A DNA stretch of 64,000 nt from Halorussus gelatinilyticus (GTDB lineage Archaea > Halobacteriota > Halobacteria > Halobacteriales > Haladaptataceae): positions 2,604,001-2,668,000 of the forward strand of contig NZ_CP096658.1 of NCBI RefSeq assembly GCF_023238445.1, in the 5' to 3' direction. A program made the translations under genes and the position numbers. The notes beneath the pieces are model-generated. The model was not told where the DNA came from, did no database searches, and saw only the letters and a list, made by a program, of their open reading frames with translations. Positions 3,487-23,951 of this stretch are shown here, piece after piece. The stretch's first letter is position 1. The number at the start of each line of letters is the position of its first letter.

Positions 3487-4044
3487 ATGCATTCGCGACC
3501 GCTAGCCGCCCTCTCGCTCGGCGTCCTCCTCGTCCTCGCGGGATGTGCGGGCAGTGGCTCCGCGCCCGGAGCGACCGACTCGCCGTCCGCGACTGCCGGC
3601 GTTGCGACGACCGACTCCGAAACCTCGTCCGTTACGTCCGCCACGTCCACCGCGTCTCCAACGACCGTCGCCGGGACCGAAACCACCACCCGAGCGTCCT
3701 GCTCGCTCGACGCGAACGCGACGCTCTCGTCGGTGTCGAAACCGGAGACGCTCTCCGAGGCGACGGCCCGTAGGGTCGCCGAGACAGTCGCCTCGCGCTA
3801 CCAGTCGGCCCGCGTGGACGAACACACGTACTTCAATCACCACACGACCGTTTCCAGCGTCGAACCGGCCGACGGCGGTTATCGGGTCGCCCTGCGAGGC
3901 GAACTCGACTACGACGAGCGCGGTGGCGAGAACGCGACGGTCGTCCACGTCCACCGACCGTACTCCGTCACCTACCGCGTGACCGACTGGGGCGTCGTCC
4001 GGCGCGGCGAGGCCGGGGCGACGGGTACCGTCGTCTGCTGGTAG
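3487..4044 (+). CDS. Haloarchaeal lipoprotein, unknown function
   Basis: 185 residues. The N-terminus has a Sec-like signal ending in a lipobox (VLAGC, cysteine at about residue 20), followed by a 45-residue Ser/Thr-rich, probably glycosylated linker and a folded domain from about residue 75. The domain contains alternating beta-strand-like segments (YRVALRGELDYDERG, TYRVTDWGVVRR) and ends in VVCW; a second cysteine near residue 77 may pair with the last one. Probably anchored to the outer face of the membrane by a lipid. No known family recognised; gene stands alone between the exporter pair and a convergent gene. Confidence 0.8.
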   Translation: MHSRPLAALSLGVLLVLAGCAGSGSAPGATDSPSATAGVATTDSETSSVTSATSTASPTTVAGTETTTRASCSLDANATLSSVSKPETLSEATARRVAETVASRYQSARVDEHTYFNHHTTVSSVEPADGGYRVALRGELDYDERGGENATVVHVHRPYSVTYRVTDWGVVRRGEAGATGTVVCW

Positions 4045-4079
4045 CGTCGCCGACTCGGAGTCGCACCGTTCACGTCGAT

Positions 4080-4619
4080 TCAATTCTCTTTTGCGAACAG
4101 TCGCTCCCGGAACCCGGCCGACTCGGGCGTCTCCGCGTCCGTCTTATCCGTCACGCGGACGCCCCGCAACCGCAGGATTTCGGCCGCGTCGTCGGCGTCG
4201 CGCTCGGTCGGCGTCTCGACCTCGAACGAGTCGCGGGCCTCGTCCTCGAAGCGGACGCGAAGTCGGTCGTCGCCCACGCGCTCGACGACTCGCACGTCGC
4301 GCAGTCGGGCCGTCTTCGTCCGCGTCGAGCGGTAGACGACGACGAGGAGAGCCAAGCAGGTGACACCGAAGACGACCAGCGAGAACGCGTCGGGCCGTCC
4401 GGTCAGCACGTCCCGAAACGCCCGCAGAATGCGCCCGAGGAACGACGCCGTGCCGAACAGCGAGACGACGAACAGCAACCGCCGACCGGTTTCGTTCCGC
4501 GTCCAGCCGTCGCGCCACTTCTCCCGTACCAGTCGGCCTGCGGACCCCGAGATTTCGAGGCGACCGTCGGCGACGGTCGCGATTCCGGAGTCGGTGCGGA
4601 ACGTCCACTCGTCTGTCAC
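4080..4619 (-). CDS. Two-helix membrane protein with soluble flanks
   Basis: About 179 residues from a GTG at 4619; no good ATG lies upstream before the fructosamine kinase stop, so the start is uncertain. The N-terminal part has strand-like segments (TFRTDSGIATVADGRLEIS), then two hydrophobic helices near residues 55-75 and 85-105, then a C-terminal domain RVRFEDEARDSFEVETPTE that resembles a PH-like strand set. I infer a membrane-attached protein with a cytoplasmic PH-like tail. It follows the fructosamine kinase gene on the same strand by about 75 nt and may be co-transcribed. Confidence 0.6.
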   Translation of the reverse strand: MTDEWTFRTDSGIATVADGRLEISGSAGRLVREKWRDGWTRNETGRRLLFVVSLFGTASFLGRILRAFRDVLTGRPDAFSLVVFGVTCLALLVVVYRSTRTKTARLRDVRVVERVGDDRLRVRFEDEARDSFEVETPTERDADDAAEILRLRGVRVTDKTDAETPESAGFRERLFAKEN

Positions 4620-16133: not shown

Positions 16134-18032
16134 TTAGTCACCCGTTGCGGATTCGATGCGGACGTTGTACTGGCTCAGGTCGGCCTCCCCGCCGATTCGG
16201 CTCTCGAAGCCGGAGACGACTTCCCGAGGCTCGAAGGGGTTGCCGTCGTACTTGAGCAGGCTGTACAGTTTCTCGCCGAAGCGACCGAGTTGGCCCTGAA
16301 CGTGGCGGCGGAACTGCGCCGTCGCGTTCATCTCGACGACCAGCGCCTCGTCGACGCTCTCGAGGAACGCGGTCACCTCGTCCTTGGCGAACGGCATCAT
16401 GTCGCTGACGTTCATTGCCTTCACCGAGTGGCCCTGCTCGTTCAGTACGTCGACGGCCTCCTCGACGACGCCCTTGGTACTGCCCCAGCTGAGGATGCCG
16501 TACTCGGCGTCCTCGGGACCGTAGACCGTCTGATGGTCGGCGTTCTCCGCGAGTTCGTCGCGGATGGACTCGAGTTTCGACATCCGGCGGTTCATCTGGA
16601 GGACGCGGTTGTCCGGGTCCTCGCTGATGTGTCCGACCTCGTTGTGTTCGTTACCCGACGCGAGGAAGTTCCCGCCCTTCTGGCCGGGGATGGAGCGCGG
16701 ACTGACGCCGCCGCGCTCGCCCTCGTCGTCGTACATGTACCGCTTGAAGCGACCAGCCTCCTGTACGGCTTCTTCGAGGTCCTGCTCGGTCGTGACGCTG
16801 CCGATGTCGGGGTTCGGCTCTTGGTCGAAGACCTCCTCGGGGACGGTCTGGTGGCCGCCCGAGAGCTTCTGGTCGTAGATGACGATGGACGGAATTTGGT
16901 ACTCGTAGGCGATTTCGAACGCCTTTCGCGTCTGTCGGTAACACTCCGCGGCGTCACCCGGCGCGAACACGACGCGGTTCGAGTCGCCCTGACTCGTGTA
17001 CAGGACGTGTTCGAGGTCGCCCTGTTCGGGCTTGGTCGGCATCCCGGTCGAACCGCCGGCGCGCATCGACTCCACGAGGACGATGGGCGTCTCGGTCATC
17101 TCGGCGAGGCCGAGCGGTTCGGACATCAGCGCGAAGCCGCCGCCGGAGGACCCGGACATCGCCTTCGCGCCGGCGTGGCTCGCACCGATGGCGAGCGACG
17201 CCGCGGCGATTTCGTCTTCGACCTGCTCGGAGATGCCGCCCATCTCCGGCAGGTGCTGGGTCATGATGGTGAACACGTCGGTCCACGGGGTCATCGGGTA
17301 GCCCGAGATGAACCGACAGCCCTCGTCGAGCGACCCGTAGGCGATGCCGTGCGAGCCGGAGACGAGGACCTGCTCTTCGTCCTGCGTGCCGGTCGGGGCG
17401 CGCAGGTCGTGGGTGTGTTCGTAATCCTCGTTGACCGACTCGTAGGCCTCCTCGAGAATCTGGATGTTGGCCTCCAGCACGTCGCCGCTCATCGCGTCCG
17501 ACATCAGACCCTTGATGTGTTCGAGGTCCATGTCCAGCAGCGCCGCGGTCGCGCCCACGCCCGCCGTGTTACGCATAACCTCGCGGCCGTGTTCCTTAGC
17601 GAGTCCTCGCAGGTCGAGGTCGTAGACGTGCCAGTCGTTCTCCTCTGCGCGCTCGTCGAAGTTCTCGATCTCGCTGGCGTCGAGCAGTCCGGAGTCGTAG
17701 ACGATGACGCCGCCCTCGCGCAGTTCGTCGAGATTCTCGGTCAGCGGTTTGATCTCCTCGTTACCGTAGTAGGCTTCCTCCTGGGGGTTCCGCGCGAAGC
17801 TGTCGCCCAGCGCCAGCAGGAAGTTGTAGTTGTCTCCTCGGGACTTTACGGGCTCGTCCTTCGCCCGAATCTCTACGTACGTGTGGCCGCCGCGGATGCG
17901 CGACGGGTAGTGTCGGTGCGTGAAGACGTTCAGCCCCGAGCGCATCAGCGCCTTGGCAAAGTTCTGGCTCGTCGAGTCGATTCCGTCTCCGGAACCGCCT
18001 GCGATTCGCCAGATGAGTTCGTCATCAGTCAT
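16134..18032 (-). CDS. porA: 2-oxoacid:ferredoxin oxidoreductase, alpha subunit (gamma-alpha fusion)
   Basis: 632 residues. The N-terminal 180 residues are the gamma (CoA-binding) domain (WRIAGGSGDGIDSTSQNFAKAL); the pyrimidine-binding alpha domain follows (SGSHGIAYGSLDEGCRFISGYPMTPWT), and the C-terminal domain includes LSWGSTKGVVEEAVDVLNEQG. This domain order is usual for haloarchaeal enzymes, which lack the delta ferredoxin subunit. It forms a heterotetramer with the downstream beta subunit. Length favours pyruvate as substrate, but 2-oxoglutarate is not excluded. Confidence 0.88.
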   Translation of the reverse strand: MTDDELIWRIAGGSGDGIDSTSQNFAKALMRSGLNVFTHRHYPSRIRGGHTYVEIRAKDEPVKSRGDNYNFLLALGDSFARNPQEEAYYGNEEIKPLTENLDELREGGVIVYDSGLLDASEIENFDERAEENDWHVYDLDLRGLAKEHGREVMRNTAGVGATAALLDMDLEHIKGLMSDAMSGDVLEANIQILEEAYESVNEDYEHTHDLRAPTGTQDEEQVLVSGSHGIAYGSLDEGCRFISGYPMTPWTDVFTIMTQHLPEMGGISEQVEDEIAAASLAIGASHAGAKAMSGSSGGGFALMSEPLGLAEMTETPIVLVESMRAGGSTGMPTKPEQGDLEHVLYTSQGDSNRVVFAPGDAAECYRQTRKAFEIAYEYQIPSIVIYDQKLSGGHQTVPEEVFDQEPNPDIGSVTTEQDLEEAVQEAGRFKRYMYDDEGERGGVSPRSIPGQKGGNFLASGNEHNEVGHISEDPDNRVLQMNRRMSKLESIRDELAENADHQTVYGPEDAEYGILSWGSTKGVVEEAVDVLNEQGHSVKAMNVSDMMPFAKDEVTAFLESVDEALVVEMNATAQFRRHVQGQLGRFGEKLYSLLKYDGNPFEPREVVSGFESRIGGEADLSQYNVRIESATGD

Positions 18033-18235: not shown

Positions 18236-18243
18236 TTTATAAG
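18236..18243 (+). promoter_or_regulatory. TATA box of the PKD surface-protein gene
   Basis: TTTATAAG within an A+T-rich stretch, centred about 27 nt before the ATG at 18267; predicts a leaderless mRNA and supports that start. Confidence 0.65.
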
Positions 18244-18266: not shown

Positions 18267-21200
18267 ATGTCGAAGCCGACTTTGGTCGCTATCGCCGTTC
18301 TCCTCGTCGTAACGACCACTGCCGCCGGAACGCTCGCTACGAACGATACCGCGCCCGTGAACGACGCGACCTCCTCGAACGAAGCACCGCTCGCCGACGC
18401 AGGTCTCGACCAAGACGTACGGCGAGGTGCGACCGTCCTCTTAGACGCCACGGGGTCGCGCGACCCCGACGGTCGCATCGAACGCTACGAGTGGTCGATT
18501 CGAACGCCGGCCGGCGACGAGATTACGCCGGACTGCGCCGACTGCGCTCGGACGCGATTCACGCCCGCGGAGACCGGCCGCTATCGCGTCACGATAACCA
18601 TCACCGACGACGACGGTGCGACGCGTTCGGACACGCTTTACGTGGACGTGTCGCCCGGCGCGGCCCCAACCGTCTACGTCTCGGGACCGACGAGTCCCAC
18701 GAAAGGCTCCTCGGTGACCTACACTGCGAACGTCTCCGCCGGAGCCGCCGCACTCGATTACGTCGTCTGGCGAGTCTCCGGGAATCGAATCGCCAACCAT
18801 TCGCTCTCGGCCGGACAGACGACCGACACCGTATCGAAGTACTTTCCAACTGCCGGAAACCGCAACGTGACCGCCACCGTGTACGACGCGGACGGGCTGG
18901 CGGAGACGGGTTCGCTCGCCGTCGCGGTCCGGTCGGAGTCCGAATCATCCCCCGGACCACCTTCGGATTCGCCGACCTCCGGCGCGAAGACCGCCGACCG
19001 GAACTCACCACAGATTACTGGCGATCAACTCCTCACCGGTGCGAGACCGTTCCGCGGCCGATACAACGTTCGACTGGATGCCCCGAGCGGTGCCGTCGCG
19101 TCGGTGGAGTGGCGAGACGGCGCTGGTCGCATCGGCAGAGGCCACTCGTTGACTCGGACGTGGGAACCCGGCGATCACGAACTCTACGCCGTCGTTACGT
19201 ACGACGACGGCTCGACGAACGTCGCCACTTTCGCCGACGGAACGACGACGGTCACGGTTGACGCGGAACCGAACGTGTCTTTCGAGTCGCTCGGCCGGTA
19301 CAGTTCGATTTCGGGAACCGTCAAAGGACTCGACGAGTACGGAAACTTGAACGGACTCCGCGTCGAGGTAGATGGCGAAGTCGTCGCCGTGGCGGGGGCG
19401 ACCCTTCGGGGTAACCGCCTCCCCGAGTTCGGTCGCCAGCGGAAACTGCGTTTCTCCCACGACGATTTCACGCCTGGCGAGAAACACACCGTGACCGTGG
19501 TTGCTTCCGACGAGCGCGGCCAAACGGTCCGCGCTAGCCGTGAAATCGTCCCTGTCGAGAAACCCGAAATCGTCCGGTCTGAGTTCGTCAACGGACCGGT
19601 GGATTCGTATCACGAACGCATCGACCCCGATCGGTACACGGCACATCACGTCTTGGAGATTGATTTAAACGGAGTTGACCCTGAGAAGGTGGATGTTATG
19701 TTACAACCAAGTGATGATAAACTATCGAAATTGGGGACGGAGAAATATTCAGAAGAAACGTCTTATTCTATGGGTGAAATACTCATACATAGTTATTGGG
19801 CTGGAGCAATACCGAATACATATTATATAAATGCGAAGATGTCGATAAGGGGTTTCAGAGAGAATTCGAGCGGGAGTGTTACTCGATACAGCAAATTCCA
19901 AGTAACACCTAGCAAGCCAGAACTCCGCTTGAACGTCGTCAACGACGGGACGGAGAACTACATCACGAGAGACCACGGTATCTTGGTGAACGCGTCCGGG
20001 TCGTTCGATCCGGATCATACCGACCTCAAGTACATCTGGAAGTACGGTGCAGAACCGACGAAGCCCGACAATACGACGGCTAAGTTCCGCTCGTACGAAC
20101 GGGCCGCGAGTATCGTCGAGGATGAATACGACCTAAAATCGAAGCGGAATTTCGATTTCCTGAACTACTTCGTCCCGGACGTCTCTAACACGACGGTTCT
20201 GACCGAGAAGCCCTACTCCGACGAGGAGACGGTTCGGGTCCGCATAGCAACCGAGCCGTACCACTTCTCGAAGCAAACCTACTACGAGGACTTCTCGTTG
20301 GGAATTTCGGTATCGAACCCCGCAGCGGACGTGATAGAGTGGAAGACTGTCGAAGCAGAACAGAGCGGACACTCAGACGCGACAGAAATCCCGTACCGAT
20401 ACGTCGGCATTGTCGAGATTCCGACTGAAGCGCTCGCTTCGACTTCGTCGTCTCAGACGGTGACTGTCTACAACGAGGAGAACACCCGGAAAAAGGTCGA
20501 GATGAGTCTGCCGGAAATCGCCGTTTCGGGGGACAAGAAGTACTGGACCGACGTCACAGTCCAAGATCTCTCGTATCTGGTCGAGAAGCCTCGCACGAGG
20601 AAGGTGACGGTCGATACAGCGGAGAGGCGAAACGAGTATCTCAAGCAAGGATACCAAATTGAGCGCAAGAGCGAAGAGGCGAACTACGTCCTCGAGGAGC
20701 GTGTCAAGACTCGAGATGCGAAGTACGAAACCGAAACGCAAGAGTTCGACAGCCAGCGTCTCCGTGCGATGTTCTTGCAATCCTCGAACGAGTGGTACGC
20801 TTCGGGACGTTATCAGACCAGGGAAACGAGAACCGAGAACGCATCTAGATGGTATCCAGTTTCGGGAACGCCGTTCGAAAAGAAGTGGCACGACTCTAGC
20901 CCGTGGAACGGTGAACGAACCGGGAATATCCGTGAAGTGAAGGTCGAACCTGCCGAGTACCGCACGCAGCGCAAGTACCGTTACGAAAACGAGATCGAGA
21001 AGACGAAGACGATGACGGTTTGGCGGACCGGGACTCGTTGGGTCACGAAAACCGGGACGCGGACGGTAGAGCGTTGTAGTCTCAAATTCGGCTGCTACGA
21101 CGTCACCGAGCGATACACGTACAGGACGACGGAGACCTACACTTACCGGACGACGAAGACCTATACCTACACGATTACGGAAACTGAGAGGTACTGGGCG

Positions 21201-21755
21201 ACGTCGAAGTACGACCCCGACCATACGTTTACCGGAAAGACGAGACGGACAAAAATCTCGGACGCCGTCTACGAGACCCGATTCGAAGTGAAGTACAAAA
21301 GCCAGACGACAGAGACGGTGACCCACTACGAAGCAGCGCGTGAGAAGAAGGTTCACGGTGCAGTCTACGAGTGGCGAGGTAGGACCTCGACTACGGACCT
21401 CATGCTCGCTAGAAAGCAGGTTTCCGGCAGAGACGACTGGCGGATGATAGAAGATCGAACGACTACGTGGGTCCTCGTTCAGCAAGATGGAACGACGACG
21501 CTCTGGACGCCGATTTACGAAACGAAGAGCAACGTCGTCAAAACGAAAGCTGTCGTCGATGGAACAGTGGTTACCCAGTCCTACGACTCTGAGACGGGTA
21601 AATTCACGGAAAAGAGGAAGTCCGCCTCGGACGAATTCGTATTCGAAGGCATGAAGAGTAAAAACAATATAGAAGAAATCATAACTAACGGCGAGGGAAC
21701 CATCGACTGGTGTCGAGTGAAGGTCGCCTGTTCGTCGTCTAATGGAAGTAATTAA
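18267..21755 (+). CDS. Large secreted PKD-type surface protein (1162 aa)
   Basis: 1162 residues. Residues 1-24 are a Sec signal peptide. Residues 35-130 are a PKD domain (GLDQDVRRGATVLLDATGSRDPDG, TITDDDGATRSDTL); two or three more Ig/PKD-like beta domains follow to about residue 430, separated by a Ser/Pro-rich linker near 215-245. Residues 465-550 are encoded by unusually A+T-rich DNA. From about residue 730 the protein is rich in Tyr, Thr, Lys and Arg, with a threefold 8-residue repeat of TYTYRTTE type near residue 950. Cysteine pairs (CADC, CSLKFGC, CRVKVAC) may form disulfides. No membrane anchor is present; the next gene supplies a protein with one. Role unknown, probably surface adhesion or assembly. 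Confidence 0.85.
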   Translation: MSKPTLVAIAVLLVVTTTAAGTLATNDTAPVNDATSSNEAPLADAGLDQDVRRGATVLLDATGSRDPDGRIERYEWSIRTPAGDEITPDCADCARTRFTPAETGRYRVTITITDDDGATRSDTLYVDVSPGAAPTVYVSGPTSPTKGSSVTYTANVSAGAAALDYVVWRVSGNRIANHSLSAGQTTDTVSKYFPTAGNRNVTATVYDADGLAETGSLAVAVRSESESSPGPPSDSPTSGAKTADRNSPQITGDQLLTGARPFRGRYNVRLDAPSGAVASVEWRDGAGRIGRGHSLTRTWEPGDHELYAVVTYDDGSTNVATFADGTTTVTVDAEPNVSFESLGRYSSISGTVKGLDEYGNLNGLRVEVDGEVVAVAGATLRGNRLPEFGRQRKLRFSHDDFTPGEKHTVTVVASDERGQTVRASREIVPVEKPEIVRSEFVNGPVDSYHERIDPDRYTAHHVLEIDLNGVDPEKVDVMLQPSDDKLSKLGTEKYSEETSYSMGEILIHSYWAGAIPNTYYINAKMSIRGFRENSSGSVTRYSKFQVTPSKPELRLNVVNDGTENYITRDHGILVNASGSFDPDHTDLKYIWKYGAEPTKPDNTTAKFRSYERAASIVEDEYDLKSKRNFDFLNYFVPDVSNTTVLTEKPYSDEETVRVRIATEPYHFSKQTYYEDFSLGISVSNPAADVIEWKTVEAEQSGHSDATEIPYRYVGIVEIPTEALASTSSSQTVTVYNEENTRKKVEMSLPEIAVSGDKKYWTDVTVQDLSYLVEKPRTRKVTVDTAERRNEYLKQGYQIERKSEEANYVLEERVKTRDAKYETETQEFDSQRLRAMFLQSSNEWYASGRYQTRETRTENASRWYPVSGTPFEKKWHDSSPWNGERTGNIREVKVEPAEYRTQRKYRYENEIEKTKTMTVWRTGTRWVTKTGTRTVERCSLKFGCYDVTERYTYRTTETYTYRTTKTYTYTITETERYWATSKYDPDHTFTGKTRRTKISDAVYETRFEVKYKSQTTETVTHYEAAREKKVHGAVYEWRGRTSTTDLMLARKQVSGRDDWRMIEDRTTTWVLVQQDGTTTLWTPIYETKSNVVKTKAVVDGTVVTQSYDSETGKFTEKRKSASDEFVFEGMKSKNNIEEIITNGEGTIDWCRVKVACSSSNGSN
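21111..21182 (+). repeat. Three 24-nt tandem units encoding a Tyr/Thr octapeptide
   Basis: Units at 21111-21134, 21135-21158 and 21159-21182 encode RYTYRTTE, TYTYRTTK and TYTYTITE. The DNA copies have diverged at several positions while the Tyr-x-Tyr alternation is kept, so selection on the protein pattern (exposed beta-strand) is likely. Confidence 0.65.
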
Positions 21756-21761
21756 ACCGAA

Positions 21762-22694
21762 ATGAGATACCGAAATTTGTACGTCGCTTTCGGGGTACTC
21801 CTCGTGGTCAGTATGTCGATTTCCACGGGGATTGTCGCCGCTGAAGCGATGCAAGTCGGGAACGAAAACCGGAAAGTTGAGTCTGCCACGAACGCCAAGT
21901 ACGCGGTTTCGTTCGACGAGGGGGCATCGACACTCGAAGTTGTGATGAGAAATCCGACTGACAGAGAAATTCAACATGGTCGATATGTAGTCACAGTAGA
22001 CAAAAAACGGGTTTATGCGGAGAATCTAAACCTCTCTGAAGGTGAACGACGAACGAAGCACATCAACATCACGGACGGGATAAACGTCAATCGAGATAAT
22101 CACACCGTCGTGTTCTCGACCTACGGCGCACACACGCAGTTCAACTTCACGCGAAAGATCGACTCGGCAAATTCGGGACCAATCCCGACACCGTACATCG
22201 CCGATGTGGAAGTTACGGAGGGAACCATCGACGGTGAACCGTCCACGGTCGCCAACGTGACGCTCGTGAACCCATCGGACCAGATCTACAGCACGAAGCT
22301 CATGGTCCACACGGTCGGAACCGACGGTAGTCGCTATCCCGCCTCGGTTCGGCCAGGAGACACCCGGACGATTACCGTCGAGTTGCTCGACGACCGCGGT
22401 GCAAAGATCGCGGGAGAGGCCCGGCTCTACACGGACAATCTCACCGACCCGTCCAGCGGAATCGATCAAGTGGAGTTCGCTGGCCAAGTCGGGACGGAGA
22501 CGCGAGTCTGGAACGCCTCGTACGAACCCGTGCGACCGACGTGGATGCAGAACAACTACGAGTATCACAACGACAGTTACGCTCCCGGTCCCGCGACGAA
22601 GCTTAGCGGCGGGCACGAACTCGCCGGAGTCCCGGTGGTGTATCTCCTCGTCGGCGTCCTGTTCGGACTGTTCGCGTTTCGGAAGCTCCGCTGA
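21762..22694 (+). CDS. Secreted protein with C-terminal membrane anchor, partner of the PKD protein
   Basis: 310 residues. Signal peptide at residues 1-28; extracellular beta-rich body of two repeated-looking halves (VVMRNPTDREIQHGRYVV and VANVTLVNPSDQIYSTKLMV); a single hydrophobic helix VYLLVGVLFGLFAF at the very end followed by RKLR, the layout of archaeal C-terminally anchored surface proteins. It starts 6 nt after the PKD gene, so they share an mRNA. I infer that it tethers or caps the PKD protein. No known family recognised. Confidence 0.8.
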   Translation: MRYRNLYVAFGVLLVVSMSISTGIVAAEAMQVGNENRKVESATNAKYAVSFDEGASTLEVVMRNPTDREIQHGRYVVTVDKKRVYAENLNLSEGERRTKHINITDGINVNRDNHTVVFSTYGAHTQFNFTRKIDSANSGPIPTPYIADVEVTEGTIDGEPSTVANVTLVNPSDQIYSTKLMVHTVGTDGSRYPASVRPGDTRTITVELLDDRGAKIAGEARLYTDNLTDPSSGIDQVEFAGQVGTETRVWNASYEPVRPTWMQNNYEYHNDSYAPGPATKLSGGHELAGVPVVYLLVGVLFGLFAFRKLR

Positions 22695-22700
22695 GGAGAC

Positions 22701-22913
22701 TTACGACTCTTTCGTGCGGATGATTTCTCGCATGTTCAGGTAGATGTCCCGCGGCGTAGTCTCCTCGTCGGGGTCGTAAAGGTCGCTGATGCGGTAGAGA
22801 ATGGCAGCGACCATCCTGCTTTCGGAGCTTTCGGCGCGGATGTCGTCGGCAATCTCTCGGAGCGTCTCGACGCGCTCCGGGTCGGTCTCGCTCGTCGCTT
22901 CGTCGTCGGACAT
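22701..22913 (-). CDS. Small acidic conserved hypothetical protein (70 aa)
   Basis: 70 residues, acidic N-terminus then two predicted helices (RVETLREIADDIRAESSESRMVAAILYRISDLYD) and a final YLNMREIIRTKES. No signal or membrane segment. It starts 3 nt after the mrp stop on the same strand, so it is probably co-transcribed with mrp. Function unknown; similar-looking short acidic helical proteins are common in haloarchaea. Confidence 0.75.
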   Translation of the reverse strand: MSDDEATSETDPERVETLREIADDIRAESSESRMVAAILYRISDLYDPDEETTPRDIYLNMREIIRTKES

Positions 22914-22916
22914 GTC

Positions 22917-23951
22917 TTAGCGTTGCTGGCGTCGTTTGATAACTCCGACGTTGTTGGCGACGTTCTCGGTCAGCACGCGGAACGCGTCGCCCGTGTCCTC
23001 GTCTTCGTCCAGCACGATGGGTCTGCCCTCGTCGCCCCCGGTCCGAACCGACGGGTCGATGGGGACCGAGCCGAGGAACGGCATGTCGTTGTCCTCGGCG
23101 AACTTCGCGCCGCCGCCGCGGCCGAAGATGTCGTGTTCGCCGCCGCAGTCAGGGCACTTGAACGTGGACATGTTCTCGGCGATGCCCAGCACCGGCGTGT
23201 CGTGTTTGCCGAACATCCGCAGGCCCTTGCGGGCGTCGTCGATGGCGACGTCTTGGGGCGTCGTTACGATGACTGCGCCCGTGACCGGGACGCTCTGGAG
23301 GAGCGTGAGCTGCGCGTCGCCGGTGCCGGGCGGGAGGTCAACGACCATGTAGTCGAGGTGGCCCCACTCGACGTCCTCCCAGAGTTGGGTGAGGACCTTG
23401 TGGACCATCGGGCCCCGCCAGATGACGGGGTCGTCCTCGCCGACGAGGAAGGCCATGCTCATGAGTTTCACGCCGAACTGCTCGGGCGGAATCATGGTCT
23501 CGTCCTCGGTGGCCGTGGGTACCTCGTCGGCGTCCACCATCCGGGGGACGTTCGGGCCGTACACGTCGGCGTCGAAGAGACCGACGCGGGCGCCCAACTG
23601 AGAGAGACCGGCCGCGATGTTGACCGCGACGGTCGATTTGCCGACGCCGCCTTTTCCCGAGGCGACCGCGATGATGTTCTCGACGTTCGGCAGGACCTGC
23701 TCGTCGGCGGAGACGTCGTCGTCCACGCGGGCCGAGAGGTCGGCGTCGAGACCGTGGTCGCTCAGGACTTCGCGGACTCGGTTGGCGATCTCCGTCTCGT
23801 GGGGCGAGTACGGCGCGCCCAGCGCCAGCGAGATGGTCGCTGTGTCGCCTTCGACAGACAGGTCGTTGACGAGACCGAGCGAGACGATGTCGTCGCCGAG
23901 GTCCGGGTCTTCGACTTCCCGGAGCAAGTCGCGTACCTCTGATGCGTCCAT
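22917..23951 (-). CDS. mrp: Mrp/NBP35 family Fe-S cluster carrier ATPase
   Basis: 344 residues. Residues 1-85 are an MIP18/DUF59 domain (VRDLLREVEDPDLGDDIVSLGLV); the rest is a deviant-Walker P-loop ATPase with SGKGGVGKST at about 98-107, FDADVYGPNVPRMV and VDLPPGTGDAQLTL. KCPDCGG near residue 265 supplies the CxxC that bridges a 4Fe-4S cluster in the homodimer. It loads Fe-S clusters onto apoproteins in the cytoplasm. The adjacent MoaA and PorAB are Fe-S-related clients or neighbours, but no functional link is proven. Confidence 0.93.
   Translation of the reverse strand: MDASEVRDLLREVEDPDLGDDIVSLGLVNDLSVEGDTATISLALGAPYSPHETEIANRVREVLSDHGLDADLSARVDDDVSADEQVLPNVENIIAVASGKGGVGKSTVAVNIAAGLSQLGARVGLFDADVYGPNVPRMVDADEVPTATEDETMIPPEQFGVKLMSMAFLVGEDDPVIWRGPMVHKVLTQLWEDVEWGHLDYMVVDLPPGTGDAQLTLLQSVPVTGAVIVTTPQDVAIDDARKGLRMFGKHDTPVLGIAENMSTFKCPDCGGEHDIFGRGGGAKFAEDNDMPFLGSVPIDPSVRTGGDEGRPIVLDEDEDTGDAFRVLTENVANNVGVIKRRQQR

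Follow-up and report, generated by a model that had tools for sequence, protein, structure and literature searches.

To our knowledge, the means by which haloarchaea retain accessory proteins outside the S-layer are little understood beyond anchoring by archaeosortase or by a lipobox. Within a window of 64,000 nucleotides of Halorussus gelatinilyticus, which is the whole stretch of DNA analysed here, a large secreted protein with no visible anchor is encoded immediately upstream of a smaller protein with a C-terminal membrane helix, and the question raised by this locus is whether the two form a complex tethered to the cell surface, as a preliminary description had proposed. No publication on this gene pair was found in the literature searched, and the pair is probably an undescribed two-part cell-surface structure.

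Gene organization of the locus

The two genes and the element preceding them are as follows.

18236..18242, + strand: TATA-like box TTTATAA, ~27 nt upstream of the ATG of the large gene (basis: sequence)
18267..21755, + strand: large gene, 1162 aa, secreted, without anchor (basis: ORF, homologues, hydropathy)
21762..22694, + strand: partner gene, 310 aa, membrane-anchored (basis: ORF, homologues)

Both open reading frames lie where they had been reported, in the same frame, with 6 nt (ACCGAA) between the stop codon TAA of the first and the start of the second. Most of 20 upstream regions of homologues likewise contain an AT-rich element resembling a TATA box around positions -30 to -40. The upstream neighbour (16134-18032, - strand), presumably KorA judging from its translated sequence, diverges from the pair, while a 70-aa ORF (MSDDEATSETDPERVETLREIADD...) on the - strand in the region 22698-22913 converges on the 3' end of the partner gene, followed by a further gene on the - strand (22917-23951), which we take from its translation to be Mrp. 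Given the divergent gene upstream and the convergent ORF downstream, the pair is regarded as a stand-alone two-gene unit. Homologues aligned from more than seven genera share 33-75% identity with the large protein and 27-78% with the partner, and this conservation of both proteins across genera excludes chance ORFs.

Domain architecture of the large protein

The following features were assigned to the N-terminal and middle parts of the large protein.

18267..18338, + strand: Sec-type signal peptide, about residues 1-24 (sequence, hydropathy)
18378..18650, + strand: PKD domain 1, residues 38-128 (Pfam PF18911, 48.9 bits against a cut-off of 27)
18657..20516, + strand: Ig/PKD/FN3-like beta sandwiches, about residues 131-750 (AlphaFold2 strands, mostly pLDDT 75-90)
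19584..19679, + strand: best-conserved stretch FVNxPVDSYHxRIDPxRYxAHHVxxIDLNG, residues 440-471 (window conservation)
19947..20186, + strand: second PKD-like domain, residues ~561-640, with SFDPD (profile match to the ColH PKD domain, E=1.3e-4)

In the hydropathy profile the N-terminal signal alone stands out, and no C-terminal helix, PGF-CTERM or lipobox was found in the protein, in agreement with its description as secreted and anchorless. In the full-length loci examined, a C-terminal anchor is absent from every large homologue and present in every partner.

The region of residues ~37-750 is modelled by AlphaFold2 as a succession of Ig/PKD-like sandwiches, and the cysteine pair C90-x2-C93 of PKD domain 1 is kept in most aligned homologues. 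Foldseek matches this string to the multi-Ig chains DSCAM, Robo2 and Sidekick and to the S-layer chains EA1 and SbsB, all of which share tandem Ig-like sandwiches with it (probability 1.0); however, whole-chain TM-scores are low and the long-strand domain described below is lacking in these chains, so that the likeness is one of fold class and domain string, not of homology. Foldseek matches to alpha-2-macroglobulin, complement and transglutaminase were set aside as reflecting the generic Ig fold because their TM-scores are 0.05-0.2, and a search of viral structures with a model of the C-terminal half and partner returned low-TM matches of Ig/PKD type and nothing else.

Window conservation reaches its maximum, 0.90, at residue 445, where the best-conserved 15-mer of the protein, VDSYHERIDPDRYTA, is located. 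The second PKD-like domain follows; its region is weakly matched by PF21027 in 17 of 20 members, and Pfam Sde0182_C is recorded at residues 573-611 barely above its cut-off (27.6 vs 27 bits). Residues 430-1162 had been described as matching no family, which holds from residue ~756 onward and fails at ~561-640, where the ColH profile match identifies a PKD-like domain.

In secreted hydrolases, PKD and Ig modules often serve as spacers, and the weak matches to the cellulose-binding Sde0182_C and to the collagenase PKD domain could suggest an extracellular enzyme or ligand-binding complex, with PKD/Ig spacers, a substrate-binding C-terminal domain and the partner serving as membrane receptor. This explanation is considered improbable, since no catalytic domain was found in any library searched and the weak matches are limited to the Ig-like fold.

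The C-terminal long-strand domain and its hairpin

Beyond the sandwich string, the large protein is of a different character.

20532..21647, + strand: C-terminal long-strand domain, residues ~756-1127 (AlphaFold2; composition)
20958..21194, + strand: beta hairpin, ~40 residues long, residues 898-976 (arm lengths, octad repeat, Thr face, AlphaFold2)
21075..21095, + strand: C937-x5-C943 at the tip of the hairpin, presumably disulfide-bonded (51 of 61 sequences have C-x(4-5)-C)

From residue ~756 onward, strands of 20-42 residues dominate the AlphaFold2 model. Residues ~756-1127 have no match in Pfam, NCBIfam or PDB sequences, and among 146 genomes of the order the domain is confined to this protein. 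In composition it is rich in Thr and Tyr, with 13-20% Lys/Arg. Its net charge across homologues is about -16 to +23, whereas that of the N-terminal part is -12 to -53, and such a near-neutral to cationic domain is unusual in the acid-rich proteome of a halophile.

In the AlphaFold2 model, strands 897-938 and 942-978 are paired around C937 and C943. The hairpin fold is supported apart from this model because its arms vary in length only jointly. Arm lengths were counted between anchors fixed by alignment, Y898 and the first Cys for the left arm, the second Cys and Y976 for the right arm; so measured, 51 homologues fall into the classes 39/33 (36 sequences), 23/17 (11), 37/31 (3) and 25/19 (1), with a difference of 6 in all 51 and r=1.0; an earlier automated measure with floating anchors had given no correlation, and the fixed anchors give a perfect one. 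As judged from this length covariation, residues 898-976 form a hairpin. On a tree of residues 38-775, the arm-length classes require at least six changes, with class 23/17 appearing in three separate places. Every step in arm length is even, and the strand faces are therefore preserved. One face of the hairpin carries Thr at 45% of positions in the left arm and 64% in the right arm, while the opposite face is chiefly Tyr, Val, Arg, Lys or Glu. Both arms contain an 8-residue (octad) repeat, reached by 10/5000 and 0/5000 parity-preserving column shuffles, and the commonest arm-length step, 16, equals two such repeats. Opposite-charge pairing between the arms was sought, and no clear register emerged.

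The hairpin is wholly or mostly lost in five homologues (G049, G179, G213, G276 and L080, the last with 15 residues between the hairpin anchors), the partner being retained in all five of these genomes, and the Cys pair is missing from four further homologues. The hairpin offers a clean natural length series (left arm of 39, 37, 25 or 23 residues, or absent) for studies of the evolution and reach of beta ribbons.

The partner protein

The partner comprises four recognizable elements.

21762..21842, + strand: signal peptide, about residues 1-27 (sequence, hydropathy)
21864..22151, + strand: Ig-like beta sandwich 1, residues ~35-130 (AlphaFold2, mostly pLDDT 76-93)
22194..22517, + strand: Ig-like beta sandwich 2, residues ~145-252 (AlphaFold2, alignment)
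22635..22688, + strand: C-terminal membrane helix and basic end FRKLR (hydropathy, helix in the model)

The alignment contains a conserved juxtamembrane stretch, WNxSYEPVRPTWMxxxYxYxN, after the second sandwich, and the C-terminal helix is present in every full-length partner homologue inspected. Hydropathy and the terminal FRKLR confirm the signal peptide and the single C-terminal helix with a basic tail that had been attributed to this protein. No curated family cut-off is reached by the partner in any library searched, and no PGF motif was found in it; it is absent from the 17 PGF-CTERM matches of the genome. Neither PADLOC (defence) nor PHROGs (phage) yielded a match for the pair. A viral or plasmid origin was considered for the two genes and found to be unsupported, with no occurrence in viral contigs and no PHROGs match.

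Conservation, co-occurrence and joint loss

Co-occurrence was examined in 391 genomes of the class with a profile of large-protein residues 428-890, scored as present above 200 bits, and a profile of the partner. The large core is patchily distributed, being found in 49 of the 391 genomes, which span at least 17 genera in seven families, and the partner is adjacent in all 49, in one of them (G009) across a contig break. In 48 of the 49, a strong partner match lies just downstream on the same strand; the remaining genome, G272, was considered as a case of a large gene without partner and rejected after an ORF scan yielded a divergent partner (44.9 bits). Among the 391 genomes there is no convincing case of a partner without the large gene: an extra partner copy in G238 was dismissed as an orphan since it lies 338 bp from a contig end, and ten partner-profile matches near E=1e-3 sit within unrelated frames of 788-1389 aa. 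The pair is likewise adjacent in 20 of 20 named loci, with relatives including Haladaptatus, Halomicrococcus, Halegenticoccus, Halomarina, Haloprofundus, Halorubellus and Haloparvum. Routine separation of the two genes, one of two results that the preliminary description had named as refuting it, was thus encountered neither in the class sample (49/49 adjacent) nor in the named genomes (20/20). The other such result, membership of the C-terminal half in a known family, was obtained for the PKD-like stretch ~561-640 only. Outside Halobacteriales, no match for the pair was found among 393 genomes of the phylum.

Spacing between the two genes varies across loci: at one end the reading frames overlap slightly, often by the ATGA of 4 nt that is typical of translational coupling, and at the other they lie ~60 nt apart. 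A search for natural fusions of the pair found none, a 639-aa frame in G404 proving to be merely a long open frame. The kor/mrp neighbourhood is common to ~14 of the loci. In one Halorussus relative (G007), both genes are missing between flanks that are 93-94% identical, and a remnant of the partner gene, its final 43 codons (L115:9216-9344), persists between korA and mrp; as read from these sequences, the large and partner genes were lost together in a joint deletion, and the pair is dispensable. The divergence of the large protein correlates with that of the partner when KorA is taken into account (mirror-tree of 14 taxa, partial r 0.68), a modest value drawn from 91 non-independent pairs of related taxa. 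By these sequence comparisons the two genes are inherited as one unit, in obligate pairing, and the pair stands as a surface unit of two genes, strictly conserved, whose beta domain is unusual and uncharacterised.

In two genomes the large gene appears damaged, being interrupted by an in-frame TGA in L116 (G193) and apparently frame-shifted in its tail in L067 (Haladaptatus litoreus), either of which may reflect decay or sequencing error.

Proposed association of the two proteins at the cell surface

A tethered complex is suggested by the adjacency of the genes, their overlapping reading frames, their joint loss and their correlated divergence. The C-terminal half and the partner were modelled by AlphaFold2 as a fused chain, translated from the DNA of the window straight through the TAA, which was rendered as Gln; the model has a low pTM of 0.35 with good domain-level confidence, and it came without a pair-error map. 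Alternatively, the proteins might be co-expressed for one surface process and not bind each other. The large protein, for instance an adhesin or a protein that binds polymers, would then pass into the medium or into the matrix of the S-layer, and the partner would act separately as a membrane receptor or assembly factor. Many haloarchaeal operons contain proteins that do not touch, and adjacency and co-transcription are also compatible with such a process; moreover, the large protein itself lacks an anchor, and neither the sequences nor the fused model reveal an interface. This alternative is nevertheless judged unlikely, as the strict pairing and joint loss seen across seven families, together with correlated divergence, speak for a pair that is physical or, at the least, obligate.

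The preferred reading, to which we assign a probability of roughly 0.55, is that the pair constitutes an accessory, membrane-tethered surface structure of haloarchaea. A Sec signal is present in both proteins and a membrane helix in the partner alone; the partner would stay in the membrane by this C-terminal helix, its two Ig-like domains holding the large protein on the cell surface beside the normal S-layer. The large protein would form a rod of about seven Ig/PKD-like sandwiches ending in a rigid beta domain, rich in Thr and Tyr and near-neutral to cationic in charge, from which the disulfide-capped hairpin would project by up to ~40 residues (~13 nm). The hairpin is probably the outward or ligand-facing tip because several lineages have shortened or lost it while keeping the partner. 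A length-variable, dispensable element is an unlikely docking site, and the docking site is therefore placed in the conserved middle, probably around residues 440-560. As judged from architecture, composition and fold class, the pair is likely to serve adhesion or surface architecture by touching acidic polymers of the surface or adjacent cells. More tentatively, and with the odds somewhat against it, the pair may be a two-component haloarchaeal surface system whose effector is a new beta fold, with an octad-repeat, disulfide-capped hairpin lengthened or shortened on both arms at once, in steps of 16 or other even numbers, as a telescoping finger that sets the reach beyond the S-layer.

Comparison with known surface proteins

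The closest analogy is offered by SlaA/SlaB, the S-layer of Sulfolobales, in which a big, beta-rich, unanchored secreted protein is combined with a smaller, Ig-like anchor with a C-terminal helix (PMC10903991). The pair might accordingly be a second S-layer of this two-component type, with the large protein as canopy lattice and the partner as membrane stalk, given the same division of labour, the Ig-like anchor domains, the beta-rich outer protein and the comparable sizes (1162 + 310 aa against 1424 + 475 aa; PMC10903991); the S-layer chains EA1 and SbsB are also among the Foldseek matches. Several differences make this explanation very doubtful. No SlaA or SlaB chains were returned by PDB sequence searches with either protein or with the profiles; the long coiled-coil stalk of the anchor is lacking, the partner model containing, ahead of the C-terminus, an 18-residue helix only (fused model 1030-1047); the pair has PKD domains and a unique long hairpin domain; and it is patchy (49/391 genomes), dispensable and coexistent with a canonical haloarchaeal S-layer gene. 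Since no sequence homology was detected, the coiled coil is absent and a canonical S-layer candidate is encoded elsewhere in the genome, the pair is taken to work like SlaA/SlaB without being a member of that system.

This candidate is a 704-aa frame outside the window (G000, C1 2365560-2367521) with halo_sig_pep and PGF-CTERM, likely the S-layer glycoprotein; a further PGF-CTERM frame (711 aa) ends near 2364992, just upstream of it. Replacement of the canonical S-layer by the pair was rejected because this candidate is present. The csg S-layer glycoprotein is, like the pair, a haloarchaeal secreted surface protein, but it is a single self-anchored protein (TIGR04207 + PGF-CTERM TIGR04126) processed by archaeosortase A, whereas here an anchorless large protein is accompanied by a partner without PGF. 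Neither halo_sig_pep (TIGR04207) nor PGF-CTERM (TIGR04126) was found in the pair, the genome-wide matches lying elsewhere. A conserved pair of secreted protein and anchor would represent a third anchoring arrangement, and one open to tests in genera that can be cultured, Halorussus and Haladaptatus among them.

Other haloarchaeal surface proteins with PKD domains, such as those of L144 and L147, resemble the large protein in PKD domain 1 and the next domain (43-51% identity) but differ in their C-terminal parts and have no partner gene. The same module is also N-terminal in large haloarchaeal proteins of L144, L145, L146 and L148, whose C-terminal parts are unrelated. In L147 (894-3620; G040), a 908-aa protein with the N-terminal PKD module ends in a Tyr/Thr-rich tail of its own that contains a C..C loop, and downstream of its gene (~3729-4478) a CAP-domain-like protein with a lipobox is encoded, perhaps another anchoring partner.
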